Both the position numbers and the translations under genes were made by a program. A stretch of 64,000 bases of DNA from NCBI RefSeq assembly GCF_943192995.1, contig NZ_CALPCP010000002.1:186001-250000 (forward strand). The letters are read 5' to 3'. This stretch comes from Flintibacter muris (GTDB lineage: Bacteria > Bacillota > Clostridia > Oscillospirales > Oscillospiraceae). Shown here piece after piece: positions 3,529 to 43,664 of the stretch (its first letter is position 1; each line of letters begins with the position of its first letter). A model generated the notes under the pieces. It made no database searches and was not told the DNA's origin. It saw only the letters and a program-made list of their open reading frames with translations.

Positions 3529-4206
3529 ATGCCTATCGTCCTTACTCAACTGAACACCAGTGAAATTTTGCGCTACATGGGCTGTCCGCCGGAGAAGGCG
3601 GACGATCTCCTCCGGGCTCGGGTGGAGGAGTGCGCCCGGGAGCTGCTGGGGGTGATTCGTCCCCGGTGGAGCTGGCGGGAGGTGGGTCTTGCCTTTGAGG
3701 AGGCGGGTGTCCGCCTGGAGGGCGGCCTGCTCCTGCCAGGGGAGGACCTGAAAGCCCATCTGGCCGGCTGCGGGCGGGCGGCGGTCTTCTGCGCCACTCT
3801 GGGGGCGGAGGTGGACGCCCTCATCCGCCGGGCGGAGCGGCTGGACATGGCTAAGGCCCTTGTTTTGGACTGCTGCGCCTCCGCCGCCGTGGAGGAGGTG
3901 TGCGACCAGATTGAGGAGGAGCTCCAGGGAAAATTCCCCGGCCGCTTTTTCCCCTTCCGCTACAGTCCCGGCTACGGCGACCTGACCCTGGAGGTGCAGG
4001 GGGAGCTTCTGGCCCTGCTGGACGCCCCCCGCCGGGTGGGACTGTGCGCTACGGCCAACCATCTGCTTACCCCCCGAAAGTCGGTGACCGCCATTCTGGG
4101 AATCGCGGCGGGGGAAATTGAATCAAAAAAGAGAAGCTGCCTGGGCTGTCCCGCCCAGGGCGGCTGTCAATACCGAAAGGCGGGCGGACACTGTGGAATT
4201 TCGTGA
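3529..4206 (+). CDS. Stand-alone methionine synthase activation-domain protein
   Basis: A 225-residue protein matching the AdoMet-binding activation domain that forms the C terminus of classical MetH. It would reductively remethylate inactive cob(II)alamin on the separate MetH. The hallmark RYSPGYGDLTLEVQ motif (about 145-158) and the LTPRKSVTAILGI segment (about 183-195) are present. A Cys-rich tail with CLGCPAQGGCQY and GGHC follows, as seen in free-standing clostridial versions and perhaps metal-binding. ATG at 3529 follows AAAGGAG. The 3' end overlaps the start of the MetH gene by 14 nt, so the two are translationally linked. Confidence 0.88.
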   Translation: MPIVLTQLNTSEILRYMGCPPEKADDLLRARVEECARELLGVIRPRWSWREVGLAFEEAGVRLEGGLLLPGEDLKAHLAGCGRAAVFCATLGAEVDALIRRAERLDMAKALVLDCCASAAVEEVCDQIEEELQGKFPGRFFPFRYSPGYGDLTLEVQGELLALLDAPRRVGLCATANHLLTPRKSVTAILGIAAGEIESKKRSCLGCPAQGGCQYRKAGGHCGIS

Positions 4207-6583
4207 ACTGTTACAAGCTCCCGGCCCCATTGTGCTGGATGGCGGCATGGGCACCATGCTCCAGGCCAAGGGGCTGAAACTGGGGGAGCATCCGGAGCTG
4301 GCCGCTCTGGAACACCCGGACTGGCTGCTGGATATTCACCGGGACTATGTGGAGGCGGGCACCCAAATTTTGTGTGCCAACACCTTCGGGGCCAACCGGG
4401 AGAAGCTGAGGCGCACAGGAAAGACGGTGGAGGAAGTCATCCCACCCTCTGTGGCCATTGCCAAACAGGCCGCGGAGGGCCGGGCGCTGGTGGCCCTGGA
4501 CCTGGGACCCACAGGCCAGCTGCTGGAGCCCACCGGAACCTTGGATTTTGAGGCGGCGGTGGACATTTTTGCCCAGCAGGTGCGCACAGCCGTCTCCGCC
4601 GGGGTGGATCTGGTGATGATTGAGACCATGACCGACCTTCAGGAGTGCCGGGCCGCCCTGCTGGCGGTCAAGGAGAACAGCAGCCTGCCGGTGATGGTCT
4701 CCCTCACCTACGAGGAGCGAGGAAGAACCTTTTTGGGCCACGCTCCTGCCTGCGCCGCCCTCACATTGGAGGGCATGGGGGCGGACGCCATCGGCGTGAA
4801 CTGCTCCCTGGGTCCCCGGGAGATGCCCGCTATTGTGGAGGAGTTGAAGCGCTGGACCACCCTGCCCATCTCGGTCAAGCCCAACGCCGGCCTGCCCGAC
4901 CCCGGGGGGGCGGGCTACGATATTACGGCGGACGAGTTTGCACAGGCCATGGCCAGCCTGACAGAGCTGGGCGTGAAGTTTTACGGCGGCTGCTGCGGCA
5001 CCACTCCGGAGTATATTGCAAAGCTGAAAGGAGCGCTGGAAGGCAGGACCATCCGGGAAATTCCCCGCCATGTCCCCGCCGCCGTGTGCAGTCCGGCGAA
5101 GGTGGTGCCCATCGACCGGGTACGGGTTATCGGCGAGCGCATCAACCCCACCGGCAAAAAGCGGATGAAGGAGGCCCTGCTCCGGGATGATACGGACTAC
5201 ATGCTGGGTCAGGCCCTGGAGCAGATTCAGGCCGGGGCGGATATTCTGGATGTGAATGTGGGCTTGCCCGACATTGACGAGACAGCTATGATGGTCAAGG
5301 TGGTCAAGGCCCTCCAGGGGGTGACCGACGCCCCCCTCCAGCTGGATTCCACCCGCCCCGAGGTGCTGGAAAAAGCCCTGCGGGTGTACTGCGGCAAGGC
5401 CGTTGTCAACTCGGTGAACGGGGATGAGGAGAACCTGGACGCCATTCTCCCCCTAGTGAAAAAGTACGGCGCGGCGGTGGTGGGCCTCACCCTGGACAGA
5501 AGAGGCATCCCCAAAACCACTTTGGACCGGCTGGATATCGCCCGAAAGATTATGAACCGGGCTATGAATTTTGGCATCCGGAAGGAAGATATCTACATCG
5601 ACTGCCTCACCCTCACCGTCTCCGCCGAGCAGGCGGCAGCCTCCCAGACCCTGGAGGCCCTCCGCCGGGTGAAAAAGGAGCTGGGCCTGAAAACGGTGCT
5701 GGGGGTGTCCAACATCTCCTTTGGACTGCCCGCCCGGCCTCTGGTCAACCAGAATTTTCTCACCATGGCCATGACCATGGGCCTGGACCTGCCCATCATC
5801 AATCCCAATCTGGATGCCATGATGGCCGCCGTCCGGTGCTACCATCTGCTGATGAATATTGACGCCGGCGCCCGGGACTATATTGCCGCCTACGCCAACG
5901 CCGAAGTGTCCACATCTATCACAGCGGGGACGGCCCAGGCATCCGCCGCCCCGGGAAGCCAGCGGACTCTGTCTCAAATTGTGGAGGCGGGCCTGAAAGG
6001 GGAGGCGGGAGAGGCGGCCCGCCGTCTGCTGGAGACCACCAGCCCTATGGAGGTGGTGGACAGCGTTCTCATCCCCGCGCTGGACAAGGTGGGCTCGGAC
6101 TTTGAGGCGGGAAAGGTCTTCCTGCCCCAGCTCATCCAGGCGGCTGGGGCGGCTCAGGCCGCCTTTGAGGTGATCCGGGAGCATCTGTCCGCCCAGCCCG
6201 GCGGGGAGAGCGGGCCCAAGGCCCCGGTGGTGCTGGCTACCGTCAAGGGGGATATCCACGACATTGGTAAGAACATTGTCAAGGTGCTGCTGGAAAACTA
6301 TGGATACCCGGTTGTCGATCTGGGCAAGGACGTGGATCCCGCTGCCGTGGTGGAGGCTGTCCGAAAGCACAGCGCCCCCCTGGTAGGGCTGTCCGCCCTG
6401 ATGACCACCACCCTGGGCAGCATGGAGGAGACTATTAAGCTCCTGCGCCAGGCTGGCCTGCCCTGCAAGGTGGTGGTGGGCGGCGCGGTGCTCACCGCCG
6501 GCTATGCCCAAAAAATCGGCGCCGACTTCTACGCCAAAGACGCCAAGGAGAGCGTGGACGTGGCCAGACAGGTCATCGGATAA
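4193..6583 (+). CDS. metH: Cobalamin-dependent methionine synthase, short form without activation domain
   Basis: About 796 residues. It transfers the methyl group of 5-methyltetrahydrofolate to homocysteine through bound cobalamin. Domains in order: homocysteine-binding barrel (1-290) with zinc ligands in IGVNCSLGP and FYGGCCGTTP; pterin-binding barrel (about 310-570) with VIGERINPTGKKRMKEAL; B12 cap domain (about 590-670); and cobalamin Rossmann domain with VKGDIHDIGKNIV, whose DxHxxG supplies the lower-ligand histidine. The ~330-residue activation domain of E. coli MetH (1227 aa) is missing and is supplied by the gene immediately upstream. The start is probably GTG at 4193, overlapping that gene; an ATG at 4118 is in frame but lies deep inside it. 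No riboswitch precedes this pair. Confidence 0.92.
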   Translation: MEFRELLQAPGPIVLDGGMGTMLQAKGLKLGEHPELAALEHPDWLLDIHRDYVEAGTQILCANTFGANREKLRRTGKTVEEVIPPSVAIAKQAAEGRALVALDLGPTGQLLEPTGTLDFEAAVDIFAQQVRTAVSAGVDLVMIETMTDLQECRAALLAVKENSSLPVMVSLTYEERGRTFLGHAPACAALTLEGMGADAIGVNCSLGPREMPAIVEELKRWTTLPISVKPNAGLPDPGGAGYDITADEFAQAMASLTELGVKFYGGCCGTTPEYIAKLKGALEGRTIREIPRHVPAAVCSPAKVVPIDRVRVIGERINPTGKKRMKEALLRDDTDYMLGQALEQIQAGADILDVNVGLPDIDETAMMVKVVKALQGVTDAPLQLDSTRPEVLEKALRVYCGKAVVNSVNGDEENLDAILPLVKKYGAAVVGLTLDRRGIPKTTLDRLDIARKIMNRAMNFGIRKEDIYIDCLTLTVSAEQAAASQTLEALRRVKKELGLKTVLGVSNISFGLPARPLVNQNFLTMAMTMGLDLPIINPNLDAMMAAVRCYHLLMNIDAGARDYIAAYANAEVSTSITAGTAQASAAPGSQRTLSQIVEAGLKGEAGEAARRLLETTSPMEVVDSVLIPALDKVGSDFEAGKVFLPQLIQAAGAAQAAFEVIREHLSAQPGGESGPKAPVVLATVKGDIHDIGKNIVKVLLENYGYPVVDLGKDVDPAAVVEAVRKHSAPLVGLSALMTTTLGSMEETIKLLRQAGLPCKVVVGGAVLTAGYAQKIGADFYAKDAKESVDVARQVIG

Positions 6584-6881: not shown

Positions 6882-9800
6882 TTAGTCCTTGGCGGCGGGT
6901 TCCTTCTCTTTTTGCGCTTTGGCCGGCTTCTTTTTCTTTTTTCCAACAATCACCAGAAGGGCGGCCAGTACCGCCGCTCCCACAGCTGCGGCCAGAATCG
7001 TCCAGCTTCCGCCTGGCTGGGGCTGAATGCAGAAGGTGGCTTGGGTGCCCTCCATAGCCAGCAGCAGATACCGTCCATTCTCAACCGCCTCCACCTGCTG
7101 CCACTGGCCGTTACGATACTGCCAGACGGCGGCTTTGCCTCCATTGGGGTTCAGCAGCCGCAGGGGGACGGTATCCCCGCTGTCCAGCCCGCTTCCGGTA
7201 AGGGAGATGTCCCAGACCACCGTTCCATCTCCGCTGTTCTGGGGCGGGAGCTGGGCGCTTTCCGACACATGGAGGACAGCCTCCTCAGTGAACCGCCCCT
7301 CCGCCAGGGCGAGGGACAGCTTTCCGGACAGCTCCTGGCTGGCGGTCACTGTGATCCAGGGGGCGTATACCGCCTCTACCGTCAGATCAGAGCTGAGGCC
7401 GGACCGGTCAAACTCGGGCCACATGCCGTAGCAGCCCTCCTGTTCAGGCACAGGGGGGAGCTGGATGCGGGACAGGTCCTCCCCATAGAGGAAGGGAATC
7501 TGGGCCACTGTCTCTCCCTCCGCCGTCAGGGTCAGGGTAAAGGCGGTAAACTCCAGGGGGACGCCGGGCATCCGGGACAGCTCGTCAAAGGGGATGGGCT
7601 CAGCCCGGCCCGCGTAGCTGACGCCGTCCACCCCGGCCACGCCGGTGTCTACAAAGTGGTTGTCCCGGAGGACGCCATCCGTCTCCACGCCGCCGGCGAC
7701 AGCGCCCAGGTATTCCGTTCCCTCTGTAATGGTGGCAATGGCATAGCTGCCTTGCAGGCGGCTGGCCCAGCCGGCAATTCCGCCCACATAGTTTCCACCT
7801 GAGAGGGTGTTTTTTGCATAACAGCTCCGGACAGAGGCGCCGGCAAAGCCGGCCACGCCCCCCACATAGTCTCCGCTGGTGCTGGCCACCGGGCCGTAGT
7901 TCTGGCAGTCCAGAGCGGTACCCAGGTCCATGCGGCCCACCATGCCGCCCACATAGTCCTTTTTGGCGGTTACGCTGCCATAGTTCAGACAGCTTTGCAG
8001 CACCGCCTTGGTCTCATAGGTGGCCCCAAAGGAGAAACGGTCTGCTGTGTCATCCTCCGGGTCCAGGTCAAACTCAATGGCCATAGCGCCCACAATGCCG
8101 CCTACGTTCCGGTCGCCCTCTACGGCGCCGGTGCTGCGGCAATCGGCCACCTTGCCCTCACGGGTGGCGGCAATGTCCTCCTCAGAAGTGTCCTCCACCC
8201 ATCTGCTCGGGCCCTCCTCCACGTCATCCAAAAACTCGTCCATGGAGTCCAGCAGCAGGGCAAAAACCACGTTGCACTGGCGGTTGATGGCCCGCAGGTC
8301 AGAGGTAAGGGTACTGTTGGCGGACTGGAGCACGCCGTTCAGCCCCTCCATCTCGTCAAACAGGCCGCTCATAGAGCTGTACAGGCTGTCGCTGGCCTGG
8401 CGGAACTCCTCCCCCAGGGGGGTAAACTCCGCCGGGCCATCGGCGGTGAGGTCGTCCACCGCATCGCCGATGGTGTCAAAGGCCCGGTCCAGCAGTCTGC
8501 CAATGGCGGCGGAGGAGTTGGCCGCGCCCTGGAGCTCCTCCAGCGCGTCCTCCAGCTCACCGGACAGGGGGCGGGCCGCCTCCAGCGCCCGCTCCAGACG
8601 GAGTATGGCGCTGTCCAGCTGGTCTCCGGCGCTCTGCATGGCGCTAAAGGCGCTGCGCAGATTTTTTCTCGCCTCCCCCAGCTCACTCAGGGAGGGGAGG
8701 CCGATCCCAGAGGGCAAAAAGCGGTCAAAAGCGTCCAGCGCCTGCTGGAAACGGTTTATGGCGGTCACCAGTTCCCCGTTGAACTGCCGCAGTACGCTCA
8801 GGGCGGAGCGGACCTCCTTCAAGGCCCGGTCGCTGGTATCCACCGCGTCGCCCAGGCTGTCCATTGCCTCCTCCAGCTGTCTGGACATGCGCTCCAGCTT
8901 CTGGCCCGCGTCTGACAGGTCGTCCAGGGCGGGGGAAATCTGATCCAGGGCGTTGGTGATGTCGGCGGACAGAATATTGACAGTGTTGATGTTCTCGTCG
9001 GTAAAATCGCTGACGTGGTCCAGCATCTCTTTGGCGCTGTCCCCGGCGCTGCTGGTGTAGTCCCCCATAACGCTCAGGCGGGCGGACACATCGTCGCCGG
9101 TGTGCTGAGCGTTGTCCAGCGCCCGGTTAATCAGGCTCTCCAGCGTGCCCAGTTCCTGGCGCAGTTCCTCAATCACGTCCCTGCCGGGGTCCATCACCAC
9201 ATAGGGCTCCGCCTGGCCCACAATGCCGCCCACATCCTTGCGGCCATGGATGGTCCCGTTGTTGACGCACCCGGTGAGATAGCCGCTCTGGCGGCCGGCG
9301 ATTCCGCCGGTGTTGTAGCCCACATGGGGGTAGCCCACCGCGCCGTTGTTGGTGCAGCCCTGCACCACGCCGCTGGAATACCCCACAATCCCTCCGGTGT
9401 CAAAACAGCTGCTGAGCAGATAGTAGGTCTCATCATTCGCTGTAACCCGCTCCTCCAGAGCGGTTCCGGCGTCCGCGCCCAGCAGGTCCACAGAGCTCTC
9501 GGTCTGCGTCAGGTTGACCCCGGCACTGTTGACGCATTTCAGCAGCAGGCCCAGACTGCGGCCCGCAATGCCGCCGGTGGCATTCTCACCGCTGACGGAG
9601 CCGGAGGCGGAACAGCCGATCAGCTGTCCGCTTTCGGCGTTGCGTCCCACAACGCCGCCCACCATACTCTCCCCCTGCACCACGCCCTGAAAGGCGCAGT
9701 TTTCCAGGGTGCCGGCGTTGTCACCCACAATGCCTCCCACGGTGGAGCGGGTTCCCTCAGGGGCCACCAGTCCGGTAACGGTCAGGTCCCGCACAACGCC

Positions 9801-10136
9801 GGCCGGCTGGACATAGCGGAACAGCCCCTGGGTGGAGCCGGCGGAAGTAAGGCGAAGACCGGAGATGGTGTGCCCCTGGCCCAGGAAGGTGCCGCCAAAG
9901 GTGGGGATGGGGGCAAAGTCCTGTCCCTCCAGCTCCAGGTCGGCGGTCAGCACAAAGGTCTTACCCTGGGACCAGGTGTCCAGGGAGCAGCTTTGGGCAA
10001 ATTTCTGAAAATCCTCCACTGTGGAGATGGTCACCTGCTCCCCCTCCGCGGCCCTGGCCACAGGCAGGACAAAGGAGGCCACCAGCCACCAGGCCAGCAG
10101 CAAAGCGAGCAGCCGGTTGGTAAAGCGCTTATCCAT
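6882..10136 (-). CDS. Large exported GLUG-repeat protein with helical central region and C-terminal membrane anchor
   Basis: About 1084 residues. The N terminus is a signal peptide (KRFTNRLLALLLAWWLVAS, cleavage near VARA-AEGEQ). Residues ~60-340 carry GLUG-type repeats (GGIVGDNAGTLENC, GGVVGRNAESGQLIGC, GGIAGRQSGYLTGC, GGIVGQAEP). Residues ~340-640 are rich in A, L, E, D and Q with heptad-like spacing, suggesting long helices or coiled coil. A second GLUG block follows (GGIVGAMAIE, GGMVGRMDLG, GGVAGFAG, GGIAGWASR). The C terminus has a transmembrane helix (TILAAAVGAAVLAALLVIVG) and a Lys-rich cytoplasmic tail. ATG at 10136 follows GAAAGGGGGC and overlaps the pump gene by 8 nt, indicating coupled translation. 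GLUG domains are known from surface and adhesin proteins; the job here is unknown, and a link to the pump is inferred. Confidence 0.8.
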   Translation of the reverse strand: MDKRFTNRLLALLLAWWLVASFVLPVARAAEGEQVTISTVEDFQKFAQSCSLDTWSQGKTFVLTADLELEGQDFAPIPTFGGTFLGQGHTISGLRLTSAGSTQGLFRYVQPAGVVRDLTVTGLVAPEGTRSTVGGIVGDNAGTLENCAFQGVVQGESMVGGVVGRNAESGQLIGCSASGSVSGENATGGIAGRSLGLLLKCVNSAGVNLTQTESSVDLLGADAGTALEERVTANDETYYLLSSCFDTGGIVGYSSGVVQGCTNNGAVGYPHVGYNTGGIAGRQSGYLTGCVNNGTIHGRKDVGGIVGQAEPYVVMDPGRDVIEELRQELGTLESLINRALDNAQHTGDDVSARLSVMGDYTSSAGDSAKEMLDHVSDFTDENINTVNILSADITNALDQISPALDDLSDAGQKLERMSRQLEEAMDSLGDAVDTSDRALKEVRSALSVLRQFNGELVTAINRFQQALDAFDRFLPSGIGLPSLSELGEARKNLRSAFSAMQSAGDQLDSAILRLERALEAARPLSGELEDALEELQGAANSSAAIGRLLDRAFDTIGDAVDDLTADGPAEFTPLGEEFRQASDSLYSSMSGLFDEMEGLNGVLQSANSTLTSDLRAINRQCNVVFALLLDSMDEFLDDVEEGPSRWVEDTSEEDIAATREGKVADCRSTGAVEGDRNVGGIVGAMAIEFDLDPEDDTADRFSFGATYETKAVLQSCLNYGSVTAKKDYVGGMVGRMDLGTALDCQNYGPVASTSGDYVGGVAGFAGASVRSCYAKNTLSGGNYVGGIAGWASRLQGSYAIATITEGTEYLGAVAGGVETDGVLRDNHFVDTGVAGVDGVSYAGRAEPIPFDELSRMPGVPLEFTAFTLTLTAEGETVAQIPFLYGEDLSRIQLPPVPEQEGCYGMWPEFDRSGLSSDLTVEAVYAPWITVTASQELSGKLSLALAEGRFTEEAVLHVSESAQLPPQNSGDGTVVWDISLTGSGLDSGDTVPLRLLNPNGGKAAVWQYRNGQWQQVEAVENGRYLLLAMEGTQATFCIQPQPGGSWTILAAAVGAAVLAALLVIVGKKKKKPAKAQKEKEPAAKD

Positions 10137-12609
10137 GGTGTTCTGCCCCCTTTCCTGCGGTGAGGGCCGACGGCGGGCCCTCTTCGGACTCCAGCGCCCC
10201 CGCCGCCAGCGCGGCGTTGATGGTGCCATGGAGGGTACCGCTGAAATCGGCGTCCACCACGCCGGAGATGTAGCCCCGGACGTGGCCGTTCACCCGCATG
10301 GTTCCGGTGTGGGTCTGGATGGGCAGCCGGGCCTTGAGGGTGAAGGCGGTCTTTTCAATGATAATGTCGCCCAGCAGCAGAATCTGGGGCAGGATGCCCA
10401 TAACCAGGAAGATGGAAATCAGGGTGCCTCGGCCCAGGCACACGCCAATGGAGGCGATAGAGGCGGTGGTGGACAGCACGCCAATGGCGATACCGGCGGA
10501 GGCCAGGATGGTGCCCGAGGTGACAATGGTTGGGAAGGCCTCATTCAGCGACTCGATCACCGCGTCCTTCAAGGGCATGGTCTGCTTCAGCTCCACATAG
10601 CGGTTGGCAATCACAATGGCGTAGTCGATATTGGCCCCCATCTGGATGGAGCTGACCACCAGATAGCTGAGGAAGAACAGGGGCTCACTTTGTAAGTAGG
10701 GGAAGGAGAAGTTGATCCACACACTGCCCTGAATCACCAGAATCAGCAGGATGGGCAGTCCGGAGGACTGGAAGGTAAACACCAGCACCAGCACCACAAA
10801 CACAATGGTCAGGATGCCGATCAGCAGGTTGTCGTTGCCGAAGGAGGTGGACAGGTCCAGGTCACTGGTGGAGTTGCCCACCAGAAAGGCGTCCTCCGGG
10901 TAATATTTGCCCACCACGGTGTGGAGAGTATCCAAAAAGGCAAAGGTCTCCTCGCTCTCCTCGGGCAGGTTGAGCTGGAGGACCAGGCGGCTGTAGTTCT
11001 CCCCCTTTAATTGCAGCTGGGCGTCGGTAAGCTGCCCGTGCAGGTCCTCGATGGTCTCGGTCATGTCAGCGTCCAGGGTGACGTAGCCCTCCTCCATCAT
11101 GTCGTAGACATACAGGAACATGTCAATCAGGGGCACGCCGTAGCTGTCTAGGCCGGATATCACCTGCCCATAGTTCTCCTGATCCACGGCGTAGGCGGAG
11201 TACAGCAGCCGGGTTACCTCAATGTCCAGGTCAGTCATCTCGGCAAACTGGCGGGGAGTCAGCCGGTCGGTGAGCACGTAGCCGTCCATGGCGTCCACGT
11301 TGGCCAACCCCAGTACGGTGTCCGTCTCAGTCATCCGCTCCAGCTCCCGGAGCAGCCGGCCCTCCCGCTCATAGTCCCCCTGGGGCACCAGCACGGCCAG
11401 GGTGTTCACCCGGCCAAAGGTGTCGTTTACCCTGGTCTGGGCAATCTGGGCATCGTTTTTCCGGATGGTGGTCAGGTCGGTCTGCCCATAGGCGTAGGGG
11501 CATCGGTTGGCAAAGATAAAGCCGCCGATCAGCAGTACCACAAACAAGGGGGGCATAATAAAGCGGGTCTTAACCGCCAGCTGGCCCCAGGCGGTAATCT
11601 TGGGCACAAAATTTTTGTGATGGGTCCGGTCGATAAGGCCGCTGAAGCTGAGCAGCAGTCCCGGCATCAGGGTGAACACAGCCAGCAGGCTGAGCACAAT
11701 GGCCTTCATCAGCACCAGGCCCAGATCCTTGCCAATGCCAAACTGCATAAAGCACATAGCCCCCAGGCCGGAGAGCGTGGTCATGGAACTGCCTGAAATC
11801 TCCGGGATGGCCTTGCTCAGGGCGATCACCACCGCTTCGCGGGCCTCCAGGTGCTCCCGCTCCTCGGTATACCGGTGGCACAAAATGATGGCGTAGTCAA
11901 TGGCCAGGGCCAGCTGGAGCACCACCGCCACCGAGTTGGACACAAAGGAAATTTCCCCAAAGATGAAGTTGGTGCCCTTGTTCATCAGGGCAGCCATGCC
12001 GAAGGTCATCAGCAGCACGGGAATCTCCATATAGGTGTGGGAGGTAAACAGCAGCACCAGCAGGATAATCACTATGGCAATCACCATAACCACCTGCATC
12101 TCGGCGTCCAGATTGGCGGAGGCGGAGTCGCCCACGTCCCCGGTAACGTAGACGTCATACCCCTCCAGCAGCGCCTTTACACCGTTCAGCCCCTCCAGGC
12201 TTACCTGGTCGCTTGCGGTGCCGTCATAGGTGATGGAAAACAGAGCGGAGCCGTTGGTATAGTGGTCCTCCGTACCGTCGAACTCCACCGACTTTACACC
12301 CTTTACAGCTTCCGCCTGCCCGGCCAGGTGCTCTGCCTGGCTGTAAGAGATGTTGTCCACCATAATGCGGCTGGTGCCAAAGGTGACAAACTCCTCATCC
12401 ATGATGGTCAGACCCTGGCGGGTCTCAGTGGTGTCAGGCAAATAGCTGGTCAGATCGTCGTTGACCGCCACCCAGCCGCTGGAAAAGACACAAAAAATGG
12501 CGATACCGATATACATCAGGTAAAACGCCTTTCGCTTGTCCACGATGAAGGCGGCTACCCGCTCCATTGGGCTCTGTTTTTCCGAAGCTTCCACTGTATG
12601 CTTGCTCAA
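10129..12609 (-). CDS. MMPL/RND-family membrane transporter
   Basis: About 826 residues with the duplicated RND layout: TM1 (AFYLMYIGIAIFCVFSSGWVA... near 25-45), an extracytoplasmic loop with LTSYLPDTTETRQG, a 5-6 helix block (VVMVIAIVIILLVLLF; LALAIDYAIILCHRYTEERE), a second loop, and a second helix block (NDNLLIGILTIVFVVLVLVF; IQMGANIDYAIVIANRYVE). The paired LAIDYAI/ANIDYAI motifs with acidic residues in a helix fit proton-coupled MMPL transporters that export lipids or hydrophobic compounds. The start is taken as TTG at 12609, 8 nt after AAAGGAG; the GTG at 12615 is too close to that site. It is the first gene of the pump/GLUG unit. The substrate is unknown. Confidence 0.85.
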   Translation of the reverse strand: MSKHTVEASEKQSPMERVAAFIVDKRKAFYLMYIGIAIFCVFSSGWVAVNDDLTSYLPDTTETRQGLTIMDEEFVTFGTSRIMVDNISYSQAEHLAGQAEAVKGVKSVEFDGTEDHYTNGSALFSITYDGTASDQVSLEGLNGVKALLEGYDVYVTGDVGDSASANLDAEMQVVMVIAIVIILLVLLFTSHTYMEIPVLLMTFGMAALMNKGTNFIFGEISFVSNSVAVVLQLALAIDYAIILCHRYTEEREHLEAREAVVIALSKAIPEISGSSMTTLSGLGAMCFMQFGIGKDLGLVLMKAIVLSLLAVFTLMPGLLLSFSGLIDRTHHKNFVPKITAWGQLAVKTRFIMPPLFVVLLIGGFIFANRCPYAYGQTDLTTIRKNDAQIAQTRVNDTFGRVNTLAVLVPQGDYEREGRLLRELERMTETDTVLGLANVDAMDGYVLTDRLTPRQFAEMTDLDIEVTRLLYSAYAVDQENYGQVISGLDSYGVPLIDMFLYVYDMMEEGYVTLDADMTETIEDLHGQLTDAQLQLKGENYSRLVLQLNLPEESEETFAFLDTLHTVVGKYYPEDAFLVGNSTSDLDLSTSFGNDNLLIGILTIVFVVLVLVFTFQSSGLPILLILVIQGSVWINFSFPYLQSEPLFFLSYLVVSSIQMGANIDYAIVIANRYVELKQTMPLKDAVIESLNEAFPTIVTSGTILASAGIAIGVLSTTASIASIGVCLGRGTLISIFLVMGILPQILLLGDIIIEKTAFTLKARLPIQTHTGTMRVNGHVRGYISGVVDADFSGTLHGTINAALAAGALESEEGPPSALTAGKGAEHHG

Positions 12610-25537: not shown

Positions 25538-25800
25538 GCAAATGCGGTGAAGGGGAAAAAGACAGGCCCTTCTCACTCAGAGAGCCGGCGGCTGGTGTGA
25601 GCCGGTGTGAGGAGCCCTGTGCATAACTGGCCCCTGAGCAGTCCGCCTGAACCCTCAGTAGGGCGGAACGTGGGGCCCCGTTACCGGCCAAGGCCTTGTT
25701 GGAGGCTGTTGAGGGCGGACAGGTGACTGTCCGCTGAACCAGGGTGGTACCGCGTGTTATTGACACGCCCCTGACTTGAAAGAGTCGGGGGCGTTTTGCT
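25538..25800 (+). promoter_or_regulatory. T-box riboswitch leader (leucine) with terminator
   Basis: The universal T-box sequence AGGGTGGTACCGCG is at 25741-25754. Upstream is a stem I with basal pairs AGGGG/CCCCT (25551-25555 with 25631-25635) and ACAGG/CCTGT (25562-25566 with 25616-25620), enclosing a specifier loop whose 3' side contains CTG followed by G at 25627-25629. Distal AGAGAGCC and GGTGTGAG elements follow the usual pattern. The terminator is CGCCCCTGACT/AGTCGGGGGCG (25766-25776 with 25783-25793) plus TTTT; pairing of the T-box with uncharged tRNA would favour the antiterminator. The specifier CTG fits tRNA-Leu and the downstream leuA. Confidence 0.93.
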
Positions 25801-41532: not shown

Positions 41533-41561
41533 TTGGCTTTTTGTCGAAGGTGTGATATAAT
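41533..41561 (+). promoter_or_regulatory. Promoter of the cobalamin-riboswitch transcript
   Basis: TTGGCT (41533-41538), a 17-bp spacer and TATAAT (41556-41561), with expected start at ~41568 where the riboswitch P1 strand begins. Confidence 0.8.
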
Positions 41562-41568
41562 GCCTCCG

Positions 41569-41760
41569 CCCCAGGTGCCCGGGTGGACAAATCCGGGAGA
41601 ATAGGGAAGAAAGTCACGGTCCCGCCGCTGTGAGAGGGGAGCCGGGCCTCAAAGACCACTGGGAAACCGGGAAGGTGAGGTCAGGCACTGAGCCTCAAGT
41701 CAGAAGACCTGCCTGGGGAAACATGCACTCATGTTGCGAGTGACAACAAGGAGGTTTTTC
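41569..41760 (+). promoter_or_regulatory. Cobalamin (B12) riboswitch
   Basis: P1 CCCCAGGTGCC (from 41569) pairs with CCTGCCTGGGG (to 41717). Conserved core pieces in order: GAATAGGGAA (~41600), TCCCGCCGCTGT (~41620), GACCACTGGGAAACCGGGAA (~41654) and the B12 box AAGTCAGAAGACCTGCC (41697-41713). The expression platform 41718-41760 contains CACTC...GAGTG next to AAGGAGG (41749-41755), so it probably works by masking or freeing the ribosome binding site; no intrinsic terminator is seen. Adenosyl- or methylcobalamin binding should repress the downstream gene. Confidence 0.95.
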
Positions 41761-41763
41761 TCA

Positions 41764-42156
41764 ATGAAAGGAAACAAGAAGACTCTGTTCGCTGTGGCCG
41801 CTCTGGCGGTCATCGCAGTTCTGATGCTGGGGCTGTGGTATGTCAGCCTCCCCCAGACTCAGGCGGGGGACAAGACCGTTGTGGTGGAGGTAGTCCACAG
41901 CGACGAGAGCACCAAGGAGTTTACCTATCACACCAGCGCCGAATATCTGGGTGAGGTCCTGCTGGCCGAACAGCTGGTGGAGGGGGAACAGAGCACCTAC
42001 GGCCTGTTCATCACCACGGTGGACGGCGAGACCGCCCAGGACAGCCTGCGTCAGTGGTGGTGCGTCACCAAGGAGGGACAGCGGGTGGACACCGGGGCGG
42101 ATACCACCCCAATCGCCGACGGCGACCGCTTTGAGCTGACTATGTCCACCTACTAA
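41764..42156 (+). CDS. Exported DUF4430 (transcobalamin C-terminal-like) protein under B12 riboswitch control
   Basis: 130 residues. N-terminal signal anchor (LFAVAALAVIAVLMLGLWYV) followed by one DUF4430 domain (TVVVEVVHSDESTKEFTYHT, GEVLLAEQLVEGEQSTYGLFIT, SLRQWWCVTKEG). DUF4430 shares its fold with the C-terminal beta domain of vertebrate transcobalamin and intrinsic factor. There is no sortase signal or lipobox, so it is probably tethered by its N-terminal helix and faces outward. ATG at 41764 follows AAGGAGG. The riboswitch directly upstream strongly suggests a task in corrinoid capture; no ECF or BtuCD transporter genes follow. Binding is inferred, not shown. Confidence 0.85.
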   Translation: MKGNKKTLFAVAALAVIAVLMLGLWYVSLPQTQAGDKTVVVEVVHSDESTKEFTYHTSAEYLGEVLLAEQLVEGEQSTYGLFITTVDGETAQDSLRQWWCVTKEGQRVDTGADTTPIADGDRFELTMSTY

Positions 42157-42180: not shown

Positions 42181-42207
42181 TGCAGGGGCGGCCTTTGGCC
42201 GCCCCTC
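42181..42207. repeat. Dispersed palindrome, compact form, copy 9
   Basis: TGCAGGGGCGGCC TTT GGCCGCCCCT hairpin just past the DUF4430 gene; ATCGCAAT before it may be a worn outer arm. Confidence 0.75.
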
Positions 42208-43010: not shown

Positions 43011-43664
43011 ATGTACAACATTCCAGACCCCGGCCAGGTGTTCCCCAATGAGTTTGGAACCACCTGCTTTATCAAAAATGTGATTTCCGCCCCCAACATC
43101 TCAGTGGGCGACTACACCTACTATGACGGCGATACAGACCCCGCCGGATTTGAACGGAACAACGTGCTGTTCAACTATCCGGAGTTTGGGGACCGGCTTA
43201 CTATCGGCAAATTCTGTGCCATCGCCAGCGGGACCAAATTCATTATGGGCCCGGCCAACCACCGCATCAGCAGCGCCACCACCTATCCCTTCGCCGTCTT
43301 CGGCGGGGAATGGGCCAAACGGGTCCCGCCCCATATGGACCAGCTGCCCCGGAAGGGGGACACGGTGATCGGAAACGACGTGTGGATTGGCCGTGAGTGC
43401 GTGATTATGCCCGGGGTAAAGATTGGGGACGGCGCCATTGTGGCCGCCTATTCCGTGGTGGTAAAGGACATCCCGCCCTACTGGGTGGCGGGAGGCAACC
43501 CGGCAAAGCCTCTGAAGCCCCGGTTCGATGAGGAGCTGACCGCTCTGCTGCTGGATTTCCGCTGGTGGGATCTGCCGCCGGAGCAGCTGGCAGACTGGCT
43601 TCCCCTGCTCTGTGACCCCGACCTGGAGAAGCTGCGCCGGGCACTGAGAGCAGCCAAACATTAA
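43011..43664 (+). CDS. Vat/CatB-family O-acetyltransferase
   Basis: 217 residues, a left-handed beta-helix xenobiotic acetyltransferase. Family marks: YYDGDTDPAGFERNNVLFNY, LTIGKFCAIASGTKFIMG, the catalytic-His segment GPANHRISSATTYPF (His at ~83), and hexapeptide turns GNDVWIGRECVIMPGVKIGDGAIVAA, then VAGGNPAKPLKPRF. Vat enzymes acetylate streptogramin A and CatB enzymes chloramphenicol; many chromosomal members have unknown substrates, so a resistance role is not established. AGGAGG lies 8 nt before ATG at 43011. Confidence 0.9.
   Translation: MYNIPDPGQVFPNEFGTTCFIKNVISAPNISVGDYTYYDGDTDPAGFERNNVLFNYPEFGDRLTIGKFCAIASGTKFIMGPANHRISSATTYPFAVFGGEWAKRVPPHMDQLPRKGDTVIGNDVWIGRECVIMPGVKIGDGAIVAAYSVVVKDIPPYWVAGGNPAKPLKPRFDEELTALLLDFRWWDLPPEQLADWLPLLCDPDLEKLRRALRAAKH

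Follow-up and report, generated by a model that had tools for sequence, protein, structure and literature searches.

We analysed a 64,000-nucleotide stretch of the Flintibacter muris genome (the window), which contains a cobalamin riboswitch followed by the gene for a small membrane-anchored DUF4430 protein. From sequence comparisons, we consider it probable that at the cell surface the tethered protein captures corrinoids such as B12 for the importer ECF-CbrT, that its formation is repressed by B12, and that in this genome it acts in trans with respect to cbrT. It is well supported that an ordinary kind of element, a riboswitch with an uptake gene, has an unusual partner here.

The features of the locus are listed in Table 1. 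The promoter match is a sequence likeness to the consensus, which by itself does not imply function; in the scanned region of 1,051 bases, 2 sites with at least 10 of the 12 consensus positions were present, as against a mean of 0.1 in shuffled sequences. The -10 box overlaps the first six model positions of the riboswitch match. This match is full-length (model positions 1-189), far exceeds the gathering score of 31.5 bits and is the only cobalamin riboswitch above this score in the window. Thus, the promoter, the complete riboswitch and the anchored DUF4430 protein described in an earlier note on this DNA were confirmed. The same note had stated that no transporter gene follows. This is correct for the window: a tblastn search with 17 CbrT relatives gave a best E-value of 0.60, so there is no cbrT in the window, and the next sizeable plus-strand ORF with a known domain (at 43011) encodes a hexapeptide-repeat protein and not a transporter. 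A terminator directly after the DUF4430 gene was considered and rejected: the only inverted repeat at this position is not followed by a run of T.

Table 1. Features of the F. muris window (positions are counted from the first base of the window)
Feature	Position	Strand	Basis
MetH-type methionine synthase with B12-binding domain	4118..6583	+	Pfam S-methyl_trans, Pterin_bind, B12-binding, B12-binding_2
Sigma-70-type promoter match, TTGGCT-17 nt-TATAAT	41533..41561	+	consensus scan, 10/12 matches
Cobalamin riboswitch aptamer, RF00174	41556..41730	+	cmscan, 101.6 bits, E 2.8e-24
L5 loop, UCCCG	41620..41624	+	published L5 consensus; placed by eye
P13 stem-loop, expression platform	41732..41748	+	stem named by eye; paired changes among 7 sequences
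Shine-Dalgarno sequence, AGGAGG	41749..41754	+	sequence; ATG 9 nt downstream
Proposed CbrT partner, a membrane-anchored protein of 130 aa with DUF4430 (transcobalamin-like SLBB)	41764..42156	+	PF14478, 30 bits
Predicted transmembrane anchor at the N terminus (approximately residues 7-29), lipobox cysteine absent	41782..41850	+	translation read by eye
Beta-grasp domain, about residues 34-130	41863..42153	+	phmmer/hmmsearch alignment to 3u7z_A
Perfect 10-bp inverted repeat, in the place of cbrT in relatives	42184..42206	+	repeat search

The PF14478 match of the window ORF lies above the curated cut-off (23.8 bits); in the Pfam search, DUF6215 also appeared, below the threshold. By eye, a hydrophobic stretch without cysteine follows MKGNKK, and it reads as a predicted signal anchor. 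The window protein matched PDB 3u7z, the protein RUMGNA_00854 of R. gnavus, across the whole extracellular domain (E 9.9e-34). With a profile of 19 sequences, the E-values were 4.1e-45 for 3u7z and 0.0061 for transcobalamin-1 (TCN1), so that the direct sequence link between the subfamily of the window protein and transcobalamin is weak. Because of the homology to 3u7z, which CATH 2.170.130.30 groups with transcobalamins and intrinsic factor (PMC13385337), a beta-grasp fold with the transcobalamin hairpin is indicated for the window protein. According to the same paper, this hairpin takes part in cobalamin binding in transcobalamins and intrinsic factor (PMC13385337). W98, W99, G105, D119-D121, F123, E124 and other residues are invariant in 18 relatives and are kept in the window protein.

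The neighbourhood of the gene was compared among DUF4430 loci of the same subfamily. Nineteen loci were named from one scan; the best 29 besides the window were taken from a family-level search, which gave subfamily matches in 91 of 250 genomes; and a phylum search with a CbrT alignment gave 30 loci, 14 of them with a DUF4430 match. With the window excluded and one identical pair reduced, 61 distinct loci with DUF4430 were obtained. A same-strand CbrT homologue adjoins the DUF4430 gene at 56 of these. The gaps between the DUF4430 and CbrT profile matches are from -25 to +65 nt, and 10 nt or less at 50 of the 56 loci. When the 14 loci found through CbrT, which favour CbrT, are set aside, 42 of 47 loci are coupled. 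Only five of the 61 loci (L022, L023, L098, L105 and L108) have no CbrT neighbour. Therefore, the statement that no transporter follows the gene is misleading beyond the window, and the description of the gene as lone applies to this genome but not to the subfamily, which mostly travels with CbrT.

Pfam gave no match for three of these neighbour proteins. Against chain A of PDB 6fnp, in contrast, the E-value was 1.8e-12 with a single neighbour protein and 2.2e-22 with a profile. Judged by this similarity, the neighbour gene product in the relatives is clearly a CbrT homologue. 6FNP is the structure of ECF-CbrT; the complex imports cobalamin and cobinamide, and CbrT binds both with nanomolar constants (PMC5997447). 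A cobalamin-type riboswitch at the gathering score lies upstream, always on the same strand, at 26 of the 61 loci; the distances are 28-246 nt, with one of 621 nt, and the riboswitch of L019 is RF01482. At the other 35 loci, 4 of which have less than 400 nt of upstream sequence, there is no riboswitch at this score. All 26 riboswitch-bearing loci have CbrT, and with only 5 loci lacking CbrT the association within the 61 is not significant (Fisher p 0.066). In the closest relative (L006, 84%), the DUF4430-CbrT pair is kept without a riboswitch at the gathering score, and unrelated sequence (L006 5700-6000) occupies its place.

In a phylum sample of 398 genomes, members of the DUF4430 subfamily were detected in 16, and matches to the CbrT profile in 55, at 1e-10. 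Both genes are present in 11 genomes and, by their coordinates, adjacent in 10; the exception is the genome of the window. Of the 16 subfamily-bearing genomes, 5 gave no match to CbrT at 1e-10; conversely, a subfamily match is absent from 44 of the 55 genomes with a CbrT match. The weaker CbrT matches examined have no DUF4430 gene alongside and are often longer; these may be other S components. The four other genomes of the same genus listed in the family sample gave no subfamily match.

The earlier note had proposed a survey for riboswitches upstream of DUF4430 genes. In a sample of 197 Oscillospirales genomes, PF14478 was found in 140 and RF00174 in 126 at E-values up to 0.001 (136 and 116, respectively, above the curated cut-offs). 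We compared 151 DUF4430 places, namely the 150 matches listed and the window's own, with the 150 riboswitches listed. Among the matches listed, 38 of the 151 places have a same-strand riboswitch no more than 5 kb upstream. In comparison, an upstream riboswitch on the opposite strand was seen at 0 of 151 places, and a downstream one on the same strand at 2 of 151. Thus, the linkage is repeated in the order. In addition, ORFs were clustered from 20 stretches of the order that had been chosen for a riboswitch near a DUF4430 gene. In these chosen stretches, an EcfT-type family was present in 11, a DUF4430 family in 12, a toroid-type/SLH family in 11 and an ECF S component in 3; an ATPase family, which includes other ABC ATPases, was present in 16 of the 20. 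Pfam confirmed one member each of the EcfT, DUF4430 and S-component groups. A description of the conserved operon protein as toroid plus DUF4430 proved too wide, because DUF4430 was found in only 2 of the 11 proteins scanned (L066 and L071), where toroid and DUF4430 are in one protein. Among the same 11, toroid-type Pfam matches were above the cut-off in 3 (L060, L066 and L071) and only below it in 6, and SLH was present in 8. In the riboswitch-led operons of L057-L074, the counterparts of the two transcobalamin halves, toroid-type SLH proteins and DUF4430 proteins, are for the most part encoded by separate neighbouring genes beside ECF genes.

The window riboswitch has the parts from which a known mode of control can be read. 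The L5 consensus of cobalamin riboswitches is UCCCG, and kissing between L5 and L13 stabilises P13, which leads to repression; a corrinoid switch that activates is also known (PMC10653944). The window sequence has this L5, and its P13/L13 hairpin could form the kissing contact: the P13 loop carries CGAG, which can pair with L5 (CGAG/CCCG, one mismatch, by eye), and the last base of P13 immediately precedes the Shine-Dalgarno sequence. Three of 7 sequences have CG in place of UA at two pairs of P13, with both sides changed, and a third pair is changed in 1 of the 7. In the P13 alignment, 97.1% of the cells are paired, and none of 500 shuffles matched the pairing fraction or the covariation score, whereas 205 of 500 matched the count of doubly changed pairs; the stem had been named by eye from the same seven related sequences, which represent few independent events. 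By analogy with the known mode, we expect B12 to repress translation of the DUF4430 gene.

In the cmscan alignment of the window aptamer, one consensus hairpin is deleted. We read it as the P4 arm of the P3-P6 four-way junction, which the window aptamer thus lacks. The span from AGGGAA to CTGT is 29 nt in all seven members of the clade (the window, L007, L008, L009, L010, L011 and L024), as against 38-41 nt in most of the other cobalamin riboswitches compared (28 of 38); the remaining 10 of the 38 were not cleanly measurable by the pattern. L5 and P13 are retained in the clade that lacks this hairpin. An aptamer without P5/L5 was also considered and was rejected, because L5 is intact and it is the other hairpin that is missing. 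Given the missing hairpin, corrinoid binding by the window aptamer is assumed.

The putative remainder of the importer is encoded elsewhere in the genome (4.52 Mb, 126 contigs). The cbrT homologue does not lie beside the window DUF4430 gene but on another contig (C6:22797-23291). Its product matched 6fnp with an E-value of 5.1e-9 and is 39-54% identical to the CbrT partners in the operons of the relatives (tblastn). No riboswitch was found beside it, even at E-values up to 10. This cbrT is divergent from an adjoining gene for a Peripla_BP_2 substrate-binding protein (both in L110 8795-10535). When the S component of a large ECF operon (P0002) was used as the query, it gave one weak match in the genome (18% identity), and comparison with the operon partners showed that this match is the CbrT homologue. 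Contig C1 carries an ECF module, with the genes for two ATPases of the ABC type and an EcfT of the CbiQ type side by side. Thus, the genome possesses both a CbrT homologue and an ATPase-ATPase-EcfT module. CbiC, an enzyme of corrin-ring synthesis, was not found in the genome, which is estimated to be 97% complete; therefore, judged from this one marker, the organism probably does not make the corrin ring. The MetH-type protein in the window is the only PF02310 match above the cut-off in the genome. Captured B12 plausibly feeds this enzyme, its likely consumer.

On this basis, we propose the following mechanism. The extracellular, membrane-anchored beta-grasp domain would bind B12, or another corrinoid, at the cell surface and pass it to CbrT, the S component of the ECF-CbrT importer. 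In this genome, where the linked cbrT seems to be gone from the operon, the protein would presumably work with the CbrT from contig C6, which is a guess. When B12 is sufficient, the corrinoid-bound aptamer would allow L5 to kiss L13 and stabilise P13, and the stabilised P13, abutting the Shine-Dalgarno sequence, would block translation of the DUF4430 protein. We infer the corrinoid binding, the contact with CbrT and the sign of the regulation. The earlier note had called the protein a surface-tethered corrinoid scavenger and compared it with the outer-membrane corrinoid capture proteins of Bacteroides. Scavenging agrees with the linkage, the homology to 3u7z, the CbrT partner and, weakly, the homology to transcobalamin; in our proposal, however, the protein would be part of an ECF importer and not a stand-alone capture system, and the likeness to the Bacteroides proteins would be functional only.

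The mechanism may be extended by a more tentative idea, which we regard as possible but rather doubtful. The tethered beta-grasp domain might cap the B12 site, with CbrT in the place of the half that the toroid forms in animals, and the two together would make a bacterial two-part B12 receptor. Human transcobalamin-1, transcobalamin-2 and intrinsic factor have a C-terminal domain of the same superfamily, and the hairpin region aligns (TCN1 378-429). In contrast, the window protein is a single domain of 130 aa without the alpha/alpha toroid, which in the animal proteins supplies part of the B12 site. To our knowledge, ECF importers work without extracellular binding proteins. If the cap-and-receptor idea is correct, ECF importers would have such a protein, and DUF4430 would be, as far as we know, the first extracellular protein dedicated to substrate binding as the partner of a group II ECF S component.

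Alternatively, the protein might be a stand-alone corrinoid sponge of the cell surface without a specific partner, from which any B12 importer takes over. The window, with no transporter gene downstream, would fit such a sponge, as would the five subfamily loci without CbrT. A further example is in the same genome, which has two RF00174 and two PF14478 matches. Each of the two riboswitches precedes one DUF4430 gene, so there are two pairs, one in the window and one on contig C59 (L005 2318-7044). In the latter, the riboswitch is followed by the gene for a surface protein of 1,479 aa that carries three SLH domains and one DUF4430 domain, and then by an integrase gene and no transporter. This pair lies between two very similar genes for 388-aa integrases, and the DUF4430-SLH gene is possibly a mobile B12-capture gene. 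Moreover, FecCD-type permeases are present, so that BtuCDF may be considered as an importer: three FecCD genes are above the cut-off, one beside a gene read as a sulfite/nitrite reductase and two in tandem. However, the coupling with CbrT at 56 of 61 loci, and the CbrT homologue and ECF module of this very genome, argue against a protein without a specific partner, and we consider the sponge unlikely.

Another explanation is that the window copy is a decaying remnant, an orphan riboswitch gene that lost its cbrT and is now without importance. Among the 62 loci including the window, this is the only one with a detected riboswitch but no adjoining CbrT. The phylogeny bears on the same point. The window protein clades with those of L006-L012 and L024 (SH-aLRT 95), and the genes for Tex and a dipeptidase are neighbours common to the window, L006, L007, L008 and L010. 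The CbrTs of L006-L012 and L024 form a clade (99/96), and the CbrT of this genome is outside it. To force it into the clade costs 36.6 log units with a borderline AU p of 0.048, in a test made on a quick tree with a clade picked after the first tree had been seen. This pattern hints, and only hints, at loss of the linked cbrT in this genome, with a different cbrT present elsewhere. In a decaying gene, however, one would not look for an intact ORF with the invariant residues, promoter, Shine-Dalgarno sequence, L5 and P13 all kept; a mere remnant is therefore quite improbable.

A domain that has calcium or another metal as its ligand, or senses something other than a corrinoid, and that owes its riboswitch to co-regulation with ECF uptake, is very improbable: 3u7z is titled a putative metal-binding protein and its crystal contains calcium sites, but the calcium is described as nonspecifically bound (PMC3975891), CbrT is a cobalamin S component, and the transcobalamin kinship and the B12 riboswitch agree with it. 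As 3u7z belongs to the CbrT-linked family, it may itself be a corrinoid binder.

Capture of corrinoids for ECF-CbrT by the DUF4430 protein, the reading that we prefer, has partial precedents. That bacterial transcobalamin-like proteins encoded beside CbiO/CbiQ genes scavenge B12 was predicted in 2007 by Burroughs and colleagues (PMC1796856), so that the scavenging role is an already published prediction. The proteins described there resemble the present one in being beta-grasp proteins, secreted or at the surface, from low-GC Gram-positives, and generally in operons with CbiO/CbiQ. In contrast to the present case, the word riboswitch is absent from the main text of that paper, and its available text describes neither CbrT nor a DUF4430-CbrT pair (PMC1796856). 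The riboswitch and the coupling with CbrT are independent support for the scavenging role. In ECF-CbrT of Lactobacillus delbrueckii, CbrT is a homologue of the neighbour in the relatives, and a separate ATPase-ATPase-EcfT module is found here too; unlike here, no transcobalamin-like partner is named in the available text (PMC5997447). Because ECF-CbrT transports as a purified complex and such a protein is not mentioned there, the partner would not be essential in L. delbrueckii. The gene cluster of L. delbrueckii is nrdJ-cbrS-cbrT-pduO (PMC5997447), and the cbrS product could be the same kind of partner and hence a precedent. For 3u7z, a close homologue of the window extracellular domain deposited as putative metal-binding, no bound corrinoid is recorded in the part of the record available to us. 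In the literature searched, which was that outside subscription, a riboswitch-controlled DUF4430-CbrT pair, or its split, was not found in print, and none of the titles of papers naming DUF4430 concerns bacterial B12 uptake.

These results offer a testable function and a partner for a widespread domain of unknown function and for a structure labelled as metal-binding. Moreover, through gene coupling and a B12 riboswitch, an importer type with proven B12 transport is linked to bacterial proteins related to the B12 carriers of animals. Bacteria unable to make B12 compete for it, and for this reason the mode of capture bears on the sharing of B12 among microbes and their hosts.

Two further observations were made in the window. 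A T-box leader (RF00230, 109.2 bits) is present at 25538-25775. Beside metH, a minus-strand ORF of 1,115 aa (6882-10229) has a signal-like start and, by eye, GLUG-looking repeats.
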